From: Hyphomicrobiales bacterium | GTDB taxonomy: Bacteria > Pseudomonadota > Alphaproteobacteria > Rhizobiales > Xanthobacteraceae | NCBI GenBank assembly: GCA_009377755.1 | Contig: WHTM01000028.1 | Coordinates: 1 to 64,000 of the forward strand | Direction: 5' to 3' | DNA: 64,000 nt | In this document: positions 9,445 through 61,457 of the stretch, in pieces | How positions within the stretch are numbered: position 1 is the stretch's first letter | Layout of the letters: every line of letters starts with the position of its first letter | Translations under genes and position numbers: made by a program | Notes under the pieces: generated by a model | The model's input: the letters and a program-made list of their open reading frames with translations, nothing else | What the model was told of the DNA's origin: nothing | Databases searched by the model: none

Positions 9445-10004
9445 GGCGTGGCCTCGCCTTGGTGGCGTCGCCGGTATGTCCATTGCCGACAACGATTGGA
9501 GCAGAACTTGACATCGCCGCGCCTACCTTTCGGCAGCGGCTTCTTGCAGGCCTCGCAGTTCTTCGGGCGCCCCCACTTCCAATCGAGCGTGGACTTGCCG
9601 CCGTTCTCCCGGCGCCGCTTGCGATATGCGCGTTGATAGCAACGGTTCGAACAGACGGCCCAGTTGAACCAGCGCGCGGTGCCCCGGAAGTGCTTTCCGG
9701 GACCGGGAACAGGAATGCTGATTGGCTCACCGCACCCTGCGCAGTCGCGCTGTTCCCGGTCGAGGTTTAGTCCGCTATCTTCCGAGAAATCACCATGCTT
9801 GAAACACTCGAAGCACATCGAGACGAGTCCCCAACCGTGATTGGTGTCTTCGAGGATAACGAAACGCTTCAACGTCGGCGGCTCGAAGCGATCCCCGCAC
9901 CAGTGGCAACAGTCAGGCCGCGTTACGGGTAAGCGATAGTTCTCTTGAGAAATATCACCCTCCTGTAACGCTCCCCCGTCTTGCGGTGCTGAGGGCGCGG
10001 TCAT
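9441..10004 (-). CDS. Triple zinc-ribbon protein in replication operon
   Basis: A 187-residue protein with three separated Cys-rich modules: CCHWCG...MCFECF (about 32-68), CAGCGEP...CSNRCYQ (about 86-124) and CEACKKPL...CSNRCRQ (about 149-174). The last two end in near-identical CSNRC(Y/R)Q followed by Arg-rich helices, so they look like duplicated MYM/zinc-ribbon fingers. I know no named family. Location before the primase suggests a DNA-binding role in replication or recombination. ATG 10004 overlaps the previous TGA. Confidence 0.6.
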   Translation of the reverse strand: MTAPSAPQDGGALQEGDISQENYRLPVTRPDCCHWCGDRFEPPTLKRFVILEDTNHGWGLVSMCFECFKHGDFSEDSGLNLDREQRDCAGCGEPISIPVPGPGKHFRGTARWFNWAVCSNRCYQRAYRKRRRENGGKSTLDWKWGRPKNCEACKKPLPKGRRGDVKFCSNRCRQWTYRRRHQGEATP

Positions 10005-10192
10005 GATGCACACTCCACAACGCGCATGCCGCTTGCCGATGCCAGGGCGCAAGCCTCAATCAGCGCGTCATGCCTGCAACCGAACAACCAGCCATGCGAG
10101 CGCAGCAACACCAACCAGGCGGGCCCTTCTTTCAACACCATCACGGCGGCGAAGCGATGCGGTGGGAATTGGATGACGGAGCCGGTCGTCAT
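10001..10192 (-). CDS. Hypothetical phage protein (63 aa)
   Basis: A short protein beginning MTTGSVIQFPPHRFAAVMVL with two predicted beta strands and a helix (HDALIEACALASASG). It is coupled at both ends to its neighbours by ATGA overlaps. No family recognised; part of the replication operon. Confidence 0.6.
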   Translation of the reverse strand: MTTGSVIQFPPHRFAAVMVLKEGPAWLVLLRSHGWLFGCRHDALIEACALASASGMRVVECAS

Positions 10193-10497
10193 GGTGCGCT
10201 CCCGATAAGATCGAGGAGTGCGCCGATCGGTGATGATGCTCGCCCGCTGCCGTCTCGCGTCATGGCCTTCCGTAAGGCATCAAGCGGCGCGCCGAACTGT
10301 AGGGCGAAGCTTGCGAGAATCGCACCGTCCCGCGCGATGGCGTCGGCACCAGAGCCGAGCTTCCGCGCGCTGACGAATATCTCGCCGAGCGAGCCGTCCT
10401 CGTAGAAGCCGAGCGAGGCGACGAAGTGCTGGCCGGCGTGTTCAAAATCTAACGTCTCGGCCGGGCGGCGGCTGTGAAGTCGGCGGCGCTGGCTCAT
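10189..10497 (-). CDS. Stand-alone TSCPD-like domain protein
   Basis: A 102-residue protein with the pattern RRRLHSRRPAETLDFEHAGQ, then SLGFYEDGSLGEIFVSARK, GSGADAIARD and SFALQFGAPL...SPIGALLD. This matches the TSCPD-type domain otherwise found at the C terminus of B12-dependent ribonucleotide reductases and alone in phages. The cysteines of the namesake motif are absent, so a structural or nucleic-acid-binding role is more likely than catalysis. ATG 10497 overlaps the TGA of the first gene of the operon. Confidence 0.65.
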   Translation of the reverse strand: MSQRRRLHSRRPAETLDFEHAGQHFVASLGFYEDGSLGEIFVSARKLGSGADAIARDGAILASFALQFGAPLDALRKAMTRDGSGRASSPIGALLDLIGSAP

Positions 10498-20800: not shown

Positions 20801-20822
20801 CCGCTGCTTCCGTGGTTCGTCC

Positions 20823-20990
20823 TAGCGTGGTGGATTTGAAGTTCCTGCCCTCGTTGCGGCAAGCTCATCGCAGGAACTTCAAATCCAAAACCACACTAGA
20901 TTCATCAAGTTGCCAGTGTCGTTCCGATTCGGAAGTTCGCTCCGGAGCGGGCTGCAAACTCAAGCGAACTTCCGAAATCGCGACACTGGG
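20823..20990. repeat. CTAGTG-family palindrome array, two units
   Basis: Unit 1 (20823-20900) has CTAGCG...CACTAG ends and stem TGGATTTGAAGTTCCTGC with its near-complement. A 13-base linker ATTCATCAAGTTG follows. Unit 2 (20914-20990) has CCAGTG...CACTGG ends and stem CCGATTCGGAAGTTCGCT. The two units share the GAAGTTC core and size but differ in stem sequence. Confidence 0.85.
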
Positions 20991-32330: not shown

Positions 32331-32446
32331 GCAGACATTTCTCCCGGACGTATTTGTATCCGGCGTTCATAGGCGAAAGCGGACGGGATGCAAAGCGCCG
32401 CAGCAATTCGCGGTTGTCATCCGGCCAAGCGACGCACAGCGTCGCG

Positions 32447-32545
32447 CGAGCCGGGACCCATCCATCCATACACACAGCTTTCACCGGATGTGCCGAGGCA
32501 TGGATCCCGGCTCTCGCGCTTCGCCCTCGGCCGGGATGATAGCGG
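32447..32545. repeat. Palindromic repeat, CGGGACCCAT family
   Basis: CGAGCCGGGACCCAT on the left pairs loosely with ATGGATCCCGGCTCTCGC, followed by CGGCCGGGATGAT. The same organisation is seen at 34515-34605 and 41655-41707. The rest of 32331-32446 holds no gene that I can see. Confidence 0.7.
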
Positions 32546-34399: not shown

Positions 34400-34514
34400 C
34401 CGAGTCGTCCTGCCCGCTCAGGATAGCCGCAAATTCGGGTCTCGGACCGCGTTGTCCCCGCCTTTCACTCGGCGTCTCCAACGCGTGCCATACACTCTAC
34501 GGTCGTCGGGGACC

Positions 34515-34605
34515 CATACTCCGTGGCCTCTCGATGGACCTGTGGCTATGGGTCCCGGCTCGCGCTCGCTGCGCTTGCTTGGCCGGGACGACAACGGTGA
34601 AGTCA
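34515..34605. repeat. Palindromic repeat, CGGGACCCAT family
   Basis: GGGGACCCATACTCC on the left, with ATGGGTCCCGGCTCGC and CGGCCGGGACGAC-like sequence on the right. Located between recJ and the hydrolase gene. Confidence 0.65.
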
Positions 34606-38952: not shown

Positions 38953-39278
38953 CTAGTGTCCCGAATCCGAAGTTCGCACCACCTTGCAGCGCCCTCTTCG
39001 CGAACTTCGGATTCGAAAGGACACTAGCAGGTTATCGAGGCTGGTGTGATTTGGTTCAGAAGTTCTCATCATGACTCGCGGCACGAACAATGAGAACTTC
39101 TGAACCCCCCACCTGGTGCCGCCGATTTGGAGTTCCTGCACCACTTGCGGCAATCTCATTCAGGAACTTCAAATCGAAAGCGGCACTAGAATCATAGACT
39201 TGCTAGTGCCCCTTTGCTTCCGAAGTTCGTGTCGGAGGGTGCTGCAATGTATCACGAACTTCAGAAGCGAGGCACTAG
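38953..39278. repeat. CTAGTG-family palindrome array, four units
   Basis: Unit 1 (38953-39027, CCGAATCCGAAGTTCGC stem), linker CAGGTTATCGAGG, unit 2 (39041-39116, GGTTCAGAAGTTCTC stem), directly fused through a shared CTGGTG to unit 3 (39113-39189, GATTTGGAGTTCCTGC stem), linker AATCATAGACTTG, and unit 4 (39203-39278, CTTCCGAAGTTCGTG stem). Each unit is a near-perfect hairpin with CTAGTG/CACTAG-like ends and an A/G-GTTC core. Confidence 0.9.
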
Positions 39279-41522: not shown

Positions 41523-41707
41523 TGTCGTCCCGGACGCGCCACCGATCTCGGGTTTACCCGAGATCGGCGCTTAAACTGCCCAAGTCGGCAACACCCGACT
41601 TGGGTGCGCGATCCGGGACCCGCGAATCCCGGTCTTCGTTGGTGCACGTGAGCAGCACCGGGGTACATGGGTCCCGGCTCTCGCTCCGCTCGGCCGGGAT
41701 GACAATG
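41523..41707. repeat. Composite GTCCCGGAC / CGGGACCCAT palindromes
   Basis: Two palindromic elements side by side. The first (41523-41622) has TCCCGGACGCGC and CGCGATCCGGGACC ends with inner hairpins ATCTCGGGTTTACCCGAGAT and CAAGTCGG...CCGACTTG. The second (to 41707) has CGGGGTACATGGGTCCCGGC and GGCCGGGATGAC. Confidence 0.75.
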
Positions 41708-49433: not shown

Positions 49434-49964
49434 TCACCCCCAGAACCACCGGACCGCCTTGGTGGTGACGTCGCCGAGCAGCAGCAGCACCGCCGCCCAC
49501 ACGAAGGCCGAGGTCCAGTTGGCGAGCTGGAAGCGCCAGAACGGCATCGCGAAAATGCCGGCGACCAGCGGCACCGAGGCGCGCAAGGGACCGGAGAAGC
49601 GTCCGATGAAGATGCCGAGCGCCCCCCACTTCTTGATGAACGCCTCGCCTTTGGGGATCAGGCCTGGGTGTCGCGACAAGGGCCACATGTGATAGACAGC
49701 ATTCTCTAGCTTGAGGCCGATCCAATAGGACAGCCAGTCGCCGAGCGCCGCGCCGACCGAGGCGGCAATCCAGATCGGCCAGAACGGGATGTCGCTCGAC
49801 GCCAGCAACAAGCCGATCCCGACTAGCGCCGCCCAGGCCGGCACCAGCAACGAAATGAAGGCGAGCGACTCGGCAAACGCCAGCGCGAAGACGACCGGCG
49901 CTGCCCATGCCTGATGGGTGCGCACAAATTCAACGAGTGCGTGGCCATATTCTTCGAGAATCAT
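49434..49964 (-). CDS. DedA-family inner membrane protein
   Basis: A 176-residue protein with four to five hydrophobic helices: FALAFAESLAFISLLVPAW, then GAALGDWLSYWIGLKL and IFIGRFSGPLRASVPLVAGI, where the conserved Arg and Pro-rich loop of the SNARE-associated/DedA domain sit. DedA proteins flip or transport phospholipids and affect membrane potential. ATG 49964 is chosen as the family start. Confidence 0.87.
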   Translation of the reverse strand: MILEEYGHALVEFVRTHQAWAAPVVFALAFAESLAFISLLVPAWAALVGIGLLLASSDIPFWPIWIAASVGAALGDWLSYWIGLKLENAVYHMWPLSRHPGLIPKGEAFIKKWGALGIFIGRFSGPLRASVPLVAGIFAMPFWRFQLANWTSAFVWAAVLLLLGDVTTKAVRWFWG

Positions 49965-50148
49965 TGCGAGCCCACCGGTACCCGTATGTAACGTGCGCGG
50001 CGGCGCGGCGCCAGCGGTCCGCCCGGCGCTGAAGTCCCAGCCGGAAAGGAGAATTGCCGCACCGGAAAACGTGCCATAATCGACCTTCAGCGATTCCGCC
50101 GAAGTTGATCGATGCTCACCCTCCATGGCAAGCCGGCCCGTAAAGTTG

Positions 50149-50222
50149 CTAGTGTCGCTACGATTCGGAAGTTCGCTCCGGAACGGGCTGCAACTCTAGC
50201 GAACGTCCGAATCGCGCCACTC
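50149..50222. repeat. CTAGTG-family palindrome, single unit
   Basis: CTAGTGTCG at the left and CGCCACTCG at the right, stem GATTCGGAAGTTCGCT with AGCGAACGTCCGAATC. It is preceded by GTAAAGTTG, a partial match to the 13-base linker. It lies 40 bases before parE. Confidence 0.8.
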
Positions 50223-50262: not shown

Positions 50263-52314
50263 ATGCCGAAAGCCGCCAAGACGACGCCGAAGACGCGCGA
50301 TCTGTTCGATTCCGCCGAATCCGGCCCCCGCCGCGCCACCGCCAAGGCCGCGCGCGGCACCGTGGGCGCCGATTCCGGCTACACCGCCAAGCACATCGAG
50401 GTGCTAGAAGGGCTCGAGCCGGTGCGGCGCCGGCCGGGCATGTATGTTGGCGGCACCGACGAGAAAGCGCTGCATCACCTGTTCGCCGAGGTGATCGATA
50501 ATGCCATGGACGAGGCGCTGGCTGGGCATGCCACCGTCATCACCGTGGAACTGTCCGCCGATGGCTTTTTGACCGTGATCGACAACGGCCGTGGCATTCC
50601 GGTCGATCCGCATCCGAAATTTCCGAAGAAGTCGGCGCTCGAAGTGATCATGTGCACGCTGCATGCCGGGGGCAAGTTCGATTCCGAGGTCTATGAAACC
50701 TCGGGCGGGCTGCACGGCGTCGGCGTCTCCGTGGTCAACGCGCTGTCGGAACGGCTCGAGGTCGAGGTCGCGCGCCAGCAGACGCTTTACGCGCAGGCGT
50801 TCGAGCGCGGCAAGCCGGTCGGTCCGCTGCGCAATCTCGGACGCATCCCGAACCGGCGCGGCACCACCGTCCGGTTCAAGCCCGATTCGAAGATTTTCGG
50901 CGCCCAGGCGCGCTTCAAGCCGCAGCGCGTGTTCAAGATGGCGCGCTCGAAGGCCTATCTGTTCGGCGGTGTCGAAATCCGCTGGAGCTGCGCTCCGGAA
51001 CTGCTGCGTGGCATCGACGACGTACCGGCACAGGAGACATTCCACTTCCCCGACGGGTTGCGCGATTTTCTCGCCTCCGCCATCCACGGCGACACGCTGG
51101 TGCATCCCGACATTTTCACTGGGCGCAGCGGCAAGACCGGCGCCCGCGGTTCGGTGGAATGGGCGATCGCCTGGACCGCCGACGCCGACGGCTTCGTCTC
51201 CTCCTATTGCAACACCATCCCGACGCAGGACGGCGGCACCCACGAATCCGGATTGCGCACCGCGCTGCTGCGCGGTCTCAAGGACCACGCCGAGCGCAAC
51301 GGCCAGGGTAAGCGCGCCGCCCCGATCGCATCGGACGACGTGATGGCGGGGGCCGCCTGCATGCTTTCCGTGTTCATCCGCGAGCCGGAGTTCCAGGGCC
51401 AGACCAAAGACCGCCTCGCCACTGTGGAAGCGCAGAAAATCGTCGAGCAGGCGATCCGCGACCCGTTCGACCACTGGCTCGCGGGCAACCCGAACCAAGC
51501 GAACAAACTGCTTGATTTCGTTGTCGAGCGCGCGGAAGAGCGCGTACGCCGTCGTCAAGAAAAGGAAATCTCGCGCAAGACCGCCGTACGCAAGTTGAGG
51601 TTGCCCGGAAAGCTCGCCGATTGCACCAACACCGCGTCCGAAGGCTCGGAACTGTTCATCGTCGAAGGTGACAGCGCCGGCGGCAGTGCCAAGCAGGCGC
51701 GCGACCGCGCCACCCAAGCGATCCTCCCGCTGCGCGGAAAAATCCTCAACGTCGCTTCGGCCGGCAAGGACAAGCTGGCGCAGAACCAGCAGCTCACCGA
51801 CCTTGTGCAGGCGCTCGGCGTCGGCACCGGTGCGCACTACCGCGAAGAGGACCTGCGTTATGAGAAGGTGATCATCATGACGGACGCCGATGTCGACGGC
51901 GCCCACATCGCTTCGCTGCTGATCACCTTCTTCTACCGGCAGATGCCGAAGCTGATCGACGAGGGGCACCTCTATCTCGCGGTGCCGCCCCTCTACCGCC
52001 TCTCGCACGGCGCCAAGTCGGTCTATGCGCGCGACGACAAGCACAAGGACGAATTGCTGAAGACTGAGTTTCACGCCAATGCCAAGGTAGAGATCGGCCG
52101 CTTCAAGGGGCTCGGTGAGATGATGGCGAGCCAGCTCAAGGAGACCACCATGAACCCGCGCAAGCGCACGCTGCTGCGGGTCACGCTGATCGCGGAAGAA
52201 CGCGCGGACACCGCCGATTCCGTCGAGCGGCTGATGGGCGTCAAGGCGGACGCCCGCTTCGCCTTTATCCAGGAGAAGGCGGAGTTCGCGGGGGAGGCGG
52301 CGCTCGACATCTAG
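50263..52314 (+). CDS. parE: DNA topoisomerase IV subunit B
   Basis: A 683-residue GyrB/ParE-type ATPase subunit that decatenates chromosomes with ParC. GHKL motifs are EVIDNAMDEALAGHA and VIDNGRGIPVD, with GGLHGVGVSVVNALS. The Toprim domain has EGDSAGGSAKQARD and DADVDGAHIASLL. The first 45 residues are a basic extension typical of alphaproteobacterial ParE. parC is not adjacent, as usual. Confidence 0.95.
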   Translation: MPKAAKTTPKTRDLFDSAESGPRRATAKAARGTVGADSGYTAKHIEVLEGLEPVRRRPGMYVGGTDEKALHHLFAEVIDNAMDEALAGHATVITVELSADGFLTVIDNGRGIPVDPHPKFPKKSALEVIMCTLHAGGKFDSEVYETSGGLHGVGVSVVNALSERLEVEVARQQTLYAQAFERGKPVGPLRNLGRIPNRRGTTVRFKPDSKIFGAQARFKPQRVFKMARSKAYLFGGVEIRWSCAPELLRGIDDVPAQETFHFPDGLRDFLASAIHGDTLVHPDIFTGRSGKTGARGSVEWAIAWTADADGFVSSYCNTIPTQDGGTHESGLRTALLRGLKDHAERNGQGKRAAPIASDDVMAGAACMLSVFIREPEFQGQTKDRLATVEAQKIVEQAIRDPFDHWLAGNPNQANKLLDFVVERAEERVRRRQEKEISRKTAVRKLRLPGKLADCTNTASEGSELFIVEGDSAGGSAKQARDRATQAILPLRGKILNVASAGKDKLAQNQQLTDLVQALGVGTGAHYREEDLRYEKVIIMTDADVDGAHIASLLITFFYRQMPKLIDEGHLYLAVPPLYRLSHGAKSVYARDDKHKDELLKTEFHANAKVEIGRFKGLGEMMASQLKETTMNPRKRTLLRVTLIAEERADTADSVERLMGVKADARFAFIQEKAEFAGEAALDI

Positions 52315-56422: not shown

Positions 56423-56563
56423 GTGCGTGACAATGACTTTTGAGGAAGGAAGCGCGGACAATACCTCCAAACACAACCGCAAGGCTAGTCCCGATTCATA
56501 TCATTGTTAGGTTGATGAGATCATTGGCGCCGCGTGGTTATTCGGGCGCGCCGATCGCTAATT

Positions 56564-56636
56564 TAGTGTCGTGATTCGGAAGTTCGCTTGAGTGCTCGGC
56601 TTGCTCCGGAGCGAAACTCGAATTCGGGACACTAGC
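56564..56636. repeat. CTAGTG-family palindrome, single unit
   Basis: TTAGTGTCG at the left, GGGACACTAG at the right, stem GATTCGGAAGTTCGCT against AGCGAAACTCGAATTC with a few mismatches. Between the XRE gene and the SMR gene. Confidence 0.8.
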
Positions 56637-56836: not shown

Positions 56837-57146
56837 CTGGGTTTTGCTGTTCTTTGCCGGCCTGTTTGAAATCGGCTGGGCGATCGGTCTCAAGTTCACG
56901 GAAGGCTTCAGCCGCCTGCTCCCAACGGTGCTCACCGTCCTCTGCATGGCGCTCAGCATCGGCCTGCTGGGCCTTGCCTTGAAGACCTTGCCCGTGGGCA
57001 CCGGCTATGCGGTGTGGACCGGCATCGGCACGATCGGCACGGCAGCGTTGGGGATCGTCCTGTTCGGCGAGCCGGCGACCGTGCTGCGGCTCGGCTGCAT
57101 CGGCCTCATCGTCGCGGGGATCGTCGGGCTCAAGCTCGTCAGCTAG
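56832..57146 (+). CDS. sugE: Small multidrug resistance family transporter, SugE/Gdx-like
   Basis: A 104-residue four-helix SMR protein. It starts MAWVLLFFAGLFEIGWAIGL with the essential Glu at about residue 13. KFTEGFSRLLP, the GTGYAVWTGIGTIGT loop-helix and a final helix follow. WAIGLK and the GYAVWTGIGTIG pattern favour the guanidinium-exporting (Gdx) branch over EmrE. GGAGG lies seven bases before ATG 56832. Its TAG stop lies inside a CTAGTG-family palindrome. Confidence 0.88.
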   Translation: MAWVLLFFAGLFEIGWAIGLKFTEGFSRLLPTVLTVLCMALSIGLLGLALKTLPVGTGYAVWTGIGTIGTAALGIVLFGEPATVLRLGCIGLIVAGIVGLKLVS

Positions 57147-57308
57147 TGTGGTTTGGATTTGAAGTTCCTGCAATGAGCCTGCCGCAACGAGGGCAGGAAC
57201 TTCAAATGCACCACACTAGATTCATAACGTTGCCAGTGTCGTTCCGATTCGGAAGTTCGCTCCGGCGCGGGCTGCAAACTCAAGCGGAACTTCCGAATCG
57301 CGACACTA
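57143..57308. repeat. CTAGTG-family palindrome array, two units, overlapping gene end
   Basis: Unit 1 (57143-57219, GGATTTGAAGTTCCTGC stem), linker ATTCATAACGTTG, unit 2 (57233-57308, CCGATTCGGAAGTTCGCT stem). Same order and linker as at 20823-20990, but the loop of unit 1 is in the opposite orientation. The first four bases contribute the stop codon of the SMR gene. Confidence 0.88.
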
Positions 57309-57309
57309 G

Positions 57310-59161: not shown

Positions 59162-59298
59162 CTAGTGTCCCGAATCCGAAGTTCGCTTGATTTTGCGGCG
59201 CCCTCCGTAGCGAACTTCGGATTCGAAGGACACTAGCAAGTTATTGAGTCTAGTGTGGTTTGGTTCAGAAGTTCGCTTGATGGACTCGCGGCAGCACG
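59162..59298. repeat. CTAGTG-family palindromes, one full and one truncated unit
   Basis: Unit 1 (59162-59236, CCGAATCCGAAGTTCGCTT stem), linker CAAGTTATTGAGT, then the left half of a second unit (from 59250, GGTTCAGAAGTTCGCTTG stem) that stops in its loop where a CGTAGGGTGGGC repeat begins. Confidence 0.85.
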
Positions 59299-59411
59299 CG
59301 TAGGGTGGGCTGAGCGAAAGCGAAGCCCACGCGGATCAGCACGGAGATCGCCGTAGCCGGATGGAGCCCCCGGGTCGCGCCTTCGGCGCGCCCGAGGATA
59401 AACTACGCGAC
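59298..59411. repeat. GTAGGGTGGGC repeat adjoining the truncated unit
   Basis: CGTAGGGTGGGCTGAGCGAA, GCGAAGCCCACGC and later CGGATGGAGCCCCCGGGTCG, TTCGGCGCGCCCGAGGATAA and ACTACGCGACATCCGGG. This is a dispersed repeat type seen in many Bradyrhizobium-like genomes. Here it interrupts a CTAGTG unit. Confidence 0.65.
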
Positions 59412-61330: not shown

Positions 61331-61457
61331 CGTGTCCCGGACGCGCAGCAGCGTGCAACGCTGCTGCGCAGAGCCGGGACCATTCCAAACTCGGAGTCCG
61401 TAACGGTCCCGGTTCTGCAGCGCATCACTGCGTGCTGCGCCGCGCCCGGGACACAGG
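61331..61457. repeat. GTCCCGGAC-family palindrome between MFP and RND genes
   Basis: It begins GTGTCCCGGACGCGCAGCAG, has the hairpin GCAGCAGCGT/ACGCTGCTGC, then CAGAGCCGGGACC and GCAGCGCATCACTGCGTGCTGC, and ends CGCCCGGGACACAG. Its layout is the same as 31213-31340. It splits the efflux operon and could tune expression of the pump relative to the adaptor. Confidence 0.8.

Follow-up and report, generated by a model that had tools for sequence, protein, structure and literature searches.

Which kind of element accounts for the palindromic repeats, with several different stems and evenly spaced joints, that lie scattered over one 64,000-nucleotide stretch of a Hyphomicrobiales genome, and what moves them? 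We refer to this whole stretch as the window; its source genome is a 5.2-Mb assembly in 95 contigs. A preliminary description, made from the letters of the window, had placed about 11-12 units with CTAG-like ends at six loci. All six loci were found again, and we count 12 hairpin units in them, including a cut one and a decayed one.

The first locus (20822-20989, two units) is a complete dimer on the plus strand, in which hairpin A (20822-20899, GATTTGAAGTTCCTG stem, assigned by sequence and match) is followed by the 13-nt linker ATTCATCAAGTTG (20900-20912) and by hairpin B (20913-20989), with a CGATTCGGAAGTTCGCT stem and the ends CCAG/CTGG. The array at 38953-39278 (four units) consists of two dimers in opposite orientation that have a single CTGG, at 39113-39116, in common. 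Its minus-strand dimer comprises hairpin B (38953-39027), the CCGAATCCGAAGTTCGC arm of which is of the type matched by the ends of the IS630 elements L366, L367 and L369, a 13-nt linker that reads CCTCGATAACCTG on the minus strand (39028-39040), and hairpin A with a GGTTCAGAAGTTC stem (39041-39116); its plus-strand dimer runs from hairpin A (CGATTTGGAGTTCCTG stem, 39113-39189) through a 13-nt linker identical to the consensus AATCATAGACTTG (39190-39202) to hairpin B (GCTTCCGAAGTTCGTG stem, 39203-39278). A further complete dimer lies on the plus strand at 57143-57309 (two units: hairpin A at 57143-57219, the 13-nt linker ATTCATAACGTTG at 57220-57232, and hairpin B at 57233-57309). At 59162-59293 there are one unit and one truncated unit, all on the minus strand: hairpin B (59162-59236), a 13-nt linker reading ACTCAATAACTTG on that strand (59237-59249), and a hairpin A cut within its loop (59250-59293), which a different, GTAGGGTGGGC-type repeat (59294-59330) abuts as if inserted in the loop.

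The two remaining loci hold one plus-strand hairpin B each. The copy at 56562-56635 is decayed and has its loop inverted, and the copy at 50149-50222 stands alone between a VTT-domain frame (49434-50126, minus strand) and a topoisomerase frame (50263-52314, plus strand). The latter frame probably encodes a GyrB/ParE-type topoisomerase, and the best relatives of its protein, at 76-82% identity, are found in Xanthobacteraceae, Bradyrhizobium, Nitrobacter, Rhodopseudomonas and Afipia; the names Xanthobacteraceae and Rhizobiales for the family and order compared below are based on these relatives. Directly before the lone hairpin stands the linker remnant AAAGTTG (50142-50148, plus strand), and these linker-like bases suggest that it is a truncated dimer. 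A second palindrome type, with GGGACC/GGTCCC-like arms, occurs four times in the window (32445-32516, 34507-34558, 41610-41680 and 61368-61418).

A common plan underlies the arrays, which differ in appearance because they are the same dimer read from opposite strands: hairpin A, a 13-nt linker and hairpin B, about 167 bp in total. The order in intact copies is CTAG-hairpin A-CTAG-13 nt-CTAG-hairpin B-CTAG, one-base variants being frequent, and the hairpins of the window measure 76-78 nt (A) and 74-77 nt (B). The four or more stem types of the preliminary description are real in so far as several exist, and they are better described as subfamilies within two kinds of hairpin, A and B. The window contains 31 copies of the GAAGTTC core that the preliminary description had seen in the arms, where shuffled sequence has 5.3 on average and never more than 10, and GAAGTTC-N18-40-GAACTTC occurs 186 times in the source genome against once for a reversed-pattern control. 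Folded as DNA, the dimer at 57143-57309 has a z score of -9.05, with none of 200 shuffles folding as well; at Rfam gathering scores, only two tRNAs match in the window, and the hairpins match no RNA family.

To describe the dimer beyond the window, 113 copies were gathered by their architecture; since the selection demanded complementary arms and spacers of 12-14 nt, this set cannot prove either arm complementarity or spacer length. Within it, 106 linkers are 13 nt and seven are 12 nt long, in a range in which only 12-14 nt was allowed. When all spacers from 8 to 60 nt that separate CACTAG from CTAGTG were counted, with one mismatch permitted in each motif, 13 nt was the commonest length in four of five sets; in G003, spacers of 12 nt are about equally common (5 vs 4). 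A linker of exactly 13 nt, as first proposed, describes all five intact linkers of the window (ATTCATCAAGTTG, CAGGTTATCGAGG on the complement strand, AATCATAGACTTG, ATTCATAACGTTG, and CAAGTTATTGAGT on the complement strand), and is nearly right elsewhere, the seven 12-nt variants among the 113 dimers departing from it.

The stems change in a compensated way, because arms pair at 24.4 (A) and 23.9 (B) of 26 positions within their own units and far worse, at 16.0 and 17.6, when they are re-dealt among units. Over 197 usable hairpins, the outer arm matches its linker-side counterpart at 24.2 of 26 positions, and in 167 of these (A, 89 of 101; B, 78 of 96) the linker-side arm carries an insert of 3-4 nt after about position 10, a figure that comes from a direct count, an alignment of 16 A-hairpin sequences having placed the bulge inconsistently. 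CTAG is found at both ends of 67 of the 112 flanked dimers, with no direct repeat beyond it, and in the source genome and in G594 dimers abut through one common CTAG, as is expected if CTAG is the target.

This architecture bears on whether the dimer is a unit at all, or whether the dimers are chance neighbours among hairpins that move singly, each as an IS630-type MITE in its own right. Every hairpin does have arm copies and CTAG at both ends, and lone hairpins exist, among them one in the source genome (C9, 31878-31954) at which no evident linker remains. Some chains, too, run A-A or B-B rather than A-B, which counts against the reading of the dimer as an IS630-type MITE that we come to prefer below. 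Independent movement is nonetheless difficult to reconcile with the order of the hairpins (with few exceptions among the 113 dimers, A comes before B), with a linker conserved in length and sequence across families, and with linker-side arms that are off-spacing; the lone hairpin of the window at 50149 keeps linker-like bases, and all three empty sites described next lack whole dimers. We regard it as improbable.

Comparison with relatives, which the preliminary description had proposed as a check, yielded three sites that lack a dimer, one against Nitrobacter vulgaris and two between Afipia genomes; at each of them, the whole dimer is absent and CTAG or near-CTAG stands in its place. In N. 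vulgaris, a dimer adjoins a conserved gene that has none in all eight aligned relatives; the empty site reads CTAG in four of these (L110, L115, L150 and L144) and a one- or two-base variant in the others, and the left end of the dimer itself is CGAG, which counts against the IS630 reading. A dimer of Afipia birgiae is absent from another Afipia (site CTCAG), and a dimer of the latter is reciprocally absent from A. birgiae (TCAG), both sites having been judged by eye from alignments and printed sequence; that they read CTCAG and TCAG rather than CTAG counts against an IS630-type MITE. Duplication of TA and duplication of CTAG look alike in sequence alone. For the loci of the window, both flanks were found in relatives for two of five, too distant for the site to be read, and for the other three no such pair was found.

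The same comparisons argue against a structure that serves the host, such as a terminator, an mRNA stabiliser or a nucleoid binding site kept by selection and not mobile. The strong hairpin fold would suit such a role, REP elements transcribed within 3'-UTRs have been described in Bradyrhizobium (from the part of PMC5082802 consulted), and one insertion is common to two related genomes (L200/L205). Relatives mostly do not share sites, however, and at two loci of the window the element sits a short way upstream of a reading-frame start in the mechanical list (38948 and 50126). In G668, moreover, contigs break inside near-identical copies and therefore indicate recent spread, which leaves a purely host-serving structure extremely improbable. 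Six contigs of that assembly (C2, C9, C15, C18, C20 and C21) start or stop in or near dimers, as a large number of recent, near-identical copies would lead one to expect.

Copies are dispersed through genomes, with tens to more than 100 in each rich one. The pattern GAACTTC-N47-55-GAAGTTC, which reflects the spacing of the inner arms, matches 135 of 296 genomes of the same family, with single matches at the level of the reversed control; at least three matches are found in 47 genomes against two for the control, with the highest numbers in G138 (113), G083 (80) and the source genome (71). Allowing up to three mismatches, the junction CACTAG-linker-CTAGTG is present in 38 of 397 genomes of the order, the source genome included, and in 14 of 52 sampled families, and the reversed-control junction does not occur among the matches listed for the order. 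Junction copies number 93 in G668 and 82 in the source genome. At class level, seven of 385 genomes, again including the source genome, have the junction, and all eight loci opened, in the six other genomes, proved to be dimers. Plasmid and phage collections were searched and contained no match to the element.

Across the order the linker is conserved in length and in sequence, with 12-nt variants, and the free variation of linkers that was named at the outset as evidence against a family is not what we see. Stems, by contrast, vary widely: outside the window's family the commonest stem among the loci read is GAATTTGACATTTGAG with GATTCCGACATTTGC, and the single-contig genome G138 alone has at least five stem types. 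Taken with the empty sites in relatives and the full-size elements that match its arms, the high copy number bears out the first view of a miniature mobile family with modular units. CTAG itself is scarce in the source genome: for the 0.81 Mb sampled, trinucleotide frequencies predict 834 occurrences but 361 are present, and these elements account for at least 74 of those 361.

The likeness to REP sequences that was first noted raises the question of whether the dimer is REPIN-like, that is, a REP doublet that owes its mobility to a REP-associated tyrosine (Y1) transposase working on hairpins in single-stranded form. There is a resemblance, since REPINs, as far as the portion of PMC3116915 drawn on here describes them, also have bulged hairpins in inverted pairs separated by a conserved spacer, with stem changes that compensate each other. 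The hairpin tetranucleotide is by consensus CTAG, however, and not GTAG or CGTC. No Y1_Tnp domain was found at E<=0.001 in 21 of 32 element-rich genomes (10 of 17 and 11 of 15 in two sets), including the single-contig genomes G138, G437, G590 and G431, and among 12 Y1 loci of relatives inspected by eye, five had GTAG-type repeats nearby and none had CTAG dimers. On these grounds we have abandoned both the REP-like label and a REP-associated tyrosine transposase as the mover, and we consider a REPIN-type origin very improbable.

The GTAG-type repeats (for example GTAGCCCGGG and GTAGGGTGGGC), seen at the Y1 loci L220, L223, L225, L226 and L228 of G003, G008 and G016, are a separate REP system that coexists with the CTAG dimers. 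In the source genome, the sole Y1 gene that adjoins a dimer belongs to an IS200-type element on C73 (L106, transposase frame 9958-10389), which has CCCCGGCAGAGCCGGGGG-type hairpin ends of its own and was apparently inserted at the end of the dimer, the last CTAG of which is broken. We rejected it as the mobiliser, as a different element that landed beside a dimer. A recurrent mobiliser gene beside dimers was sought by comparing 50 flank loci, including some that were chance matches to the pattern, with one another by tblastx, and was rejected in turn. The comparison returned the dimers themselves and the orthologous pair L200/L205; it also returned a weak 75-residue match between L056 and L194, both element-bearing, and matches among the chance-pattern loci. 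Unpaired arms in 0.8 Mb of the source genome, followed up as possible ends of an autonomous element, turned out by eye to be truncated units and chance matches, none of them flanking a longer element.

Full-size elements with matching ends were found elsewhere, among IS630 relatives, which were gathered from 45 of 397 genomes of the order at 1e-30 and from 50 of 296 genomes of the family. Their ends were placed by a script that used CTAG-like sites and end-to-end similarity; 36 elements were used, and 22 of 58 loci were dropped, two as duplicates and the rest because ends were missing or not convincingly placed (L370, for instance, has best-scoring ends that look like another repeat). When scored against 175 dimer arms, 55 of the 72 ends exceed the 99% level of two controls, namely shuffled ends (n=720, largest score 8) and internal IS segments (n=409, largest 10; threshold 7.96). 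At least one such end is present in 34 of the 36 elements; the 17 ends that match no dimer arm above threshold count against the relationship. The arm type of the window, CTAGTGTCCCGAATCCGAAGTTCGC, is matched by L366, L367 and L369, with L366 agreeing with an arm of the source genome at 25 of 28 positions, and L365-L367, L369, L371, L373 and L375 are the IS elements with the window's arm type.

One full-size element is that of G431, a genome with 11 DDE_3 matches, in which seven of ten compared copies (L310 and six others) are identical over the 1146-bp element and have CTAG at both ends. The element encodes a transposase of the IS630 family (NCBIfam score 267.5 bits, cut-off 100; Pfam DDE_3). 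Both ends of the element begin with CTAGTGCACTGAC, and the pair is similar to the A and B arms in a dimer subfamily of G594. The source genome has a 1152-bp IS630 relative at C72, with a stop in the transposase and a different arm type; no IS with the main arm type of the window was found there, this broken copy being the only one. DDE_3 was not found in four of ten element-bearing genomes (G437, G383, G374 and G489), and close IS relatives occur in 10 of 38 junction-positive against 35 of 359 junction-negative genomes, a modest association (Fisher p=0.005, with at most five candidates scored per genome). The patchiness of close relatives (10 of 38) counts against the IS630 reading, under which the partner must often have been lost or have acted briefly; spread was probably episodic, and many copies in the window look like relics.

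In ungapped comparison, IS ends fit the outer arms, which retain the spacing of the IS repeats, better than the linker-side arms in 64 of 72 cases, with seven ties and one reverse, and it is on this sequence comparison that we call the linker-side arms disabled. A linker-like 13-mer stands right after the left repeat, about 25-37 bases from the left end, in L366, L369 (AATCATAGATTCG) and L373. A fourth such match, in L368, is on the other strand, and about four chance matches are expected, by estimate, in the sequence scanned. These matches offer a hint that the linker may be derived from IS sequence.

We therefore consider it highly probable that the units are halves of a non-autonomous MITE of about 167 bp, of the IS630/Tc1-mariner class, that is moved in trans by an IS630 transposase; the mobilisation in trans is our inference from the matching ends, and the mover is likely a member of the IS630 (Tc1/mariner) family and not a REP-associated transposase. 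The dimer is short and has no transposase gene, as a MITE should. An IS630 transposase supplied in trans would bind the outermost arms of A and B as two terminal repeats, cut out the dimer and paste it into the TA of a CTAG, an event that would leave CTAG on both sides and allow dimers to enter one another's CTAG ends. The linker-side arms would be the same repeats with 3-4 bases added after about position 10, which breaks the repeat spacing and probably makes them unusable; because they are off-spacing and probably disabled, the whole dimer rather than a single hairpin would move. The stem subfamilies would answer to different IS630 lineages. Tenzen and Ohtsubo reportedly observed preferential insertion into CTAG. 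IS630-family transposition duplicates TA, and the 24-bp repeats of ISY100, an IS630-family element, are thought by the authors to be likely the minimum (both from the excerpt of PMC2170065 available to us).

The element is of a known kind, a MITE, with an unusual two-palindrome scaffold and arms that match several IS630 lineages. Like other IS630/Tc1-mariner MITEs, the dimer is short, gene-less and multicopy, with ends like those of full-size IS630 elements and, apparently, a CTAG/TA target. Ordinary MITEs typically have one repeat at each end. In the dimer, by contrast, the repeat forms a complete palindrome at either end, so that there are four copies of the arm, the inner two off-spacing; further differences are the 13-nt linker and the presence of several arm types on a single scaffold. 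RIME1 of Rhizobium, about 130 bp with two large palindromes, is likewise a two-palindrome intergenic element of the same order. REPINs and BIMEs with their RAYT, in the parts of PMC3116915 and PMC3733652 used here, resemble the dimer as inverted doublets of bulged hairpins that move as doublets; the dimer differs in having CTAG rather than GTAG or CGTC, hairpins of mostly 74-79 nt rather than 20-40 bp, and a DDE-type partner with no link to RAYT. MITEPsy1 of Pseudomonas syringae (100 nt, with 18-nt repeats and kinship to ISPsy2 of the IS5 family, according to a portion of PMC3189936) is different. Br-REP1 and Br-REP2 of Bradyrhizobium, as an excerpt of PMC5082802 presents them, are, like the dimer, intergenic palindromes, and occur in a related genus; a search of the window that tolerated as many as three mismatches found no copy of the Br-REP1 consensus CCGGAATCTCGAGATTCCGG. 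The preliminary description knew no published name for the family, and we found no description of the element in the open-licence literature.

How one design came to carry so many arms may be explained by its history. The common linker favours a single scaffold over several parallel ones, and we propose tentatively, at a little short of even confidence, that an ancient scaffold of two palindromes, disabled inner arms and a 13-nt linker has persisted across the order, swapping arms to suit successive IS630 lineages. Hairpin-templated copying at replication would keep its four arms matched to one another, and the scaffold would parasitise whichever transposase is present.

The reading as an IS630-type MITE would account for a large, apparently undescribed repeat class in an alphaproteobacterial order, and it names a mover that can be tested. 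The off-spacing inner ends suggest a way in which a composite holds together, and the dimer offers a convenient means of finding out how much drift IS630/Tc1-mariner ends tolerate before they cease to be usable. Its design suggests how a gene-less parasite may stay mobile while the transposases of its hosts change.
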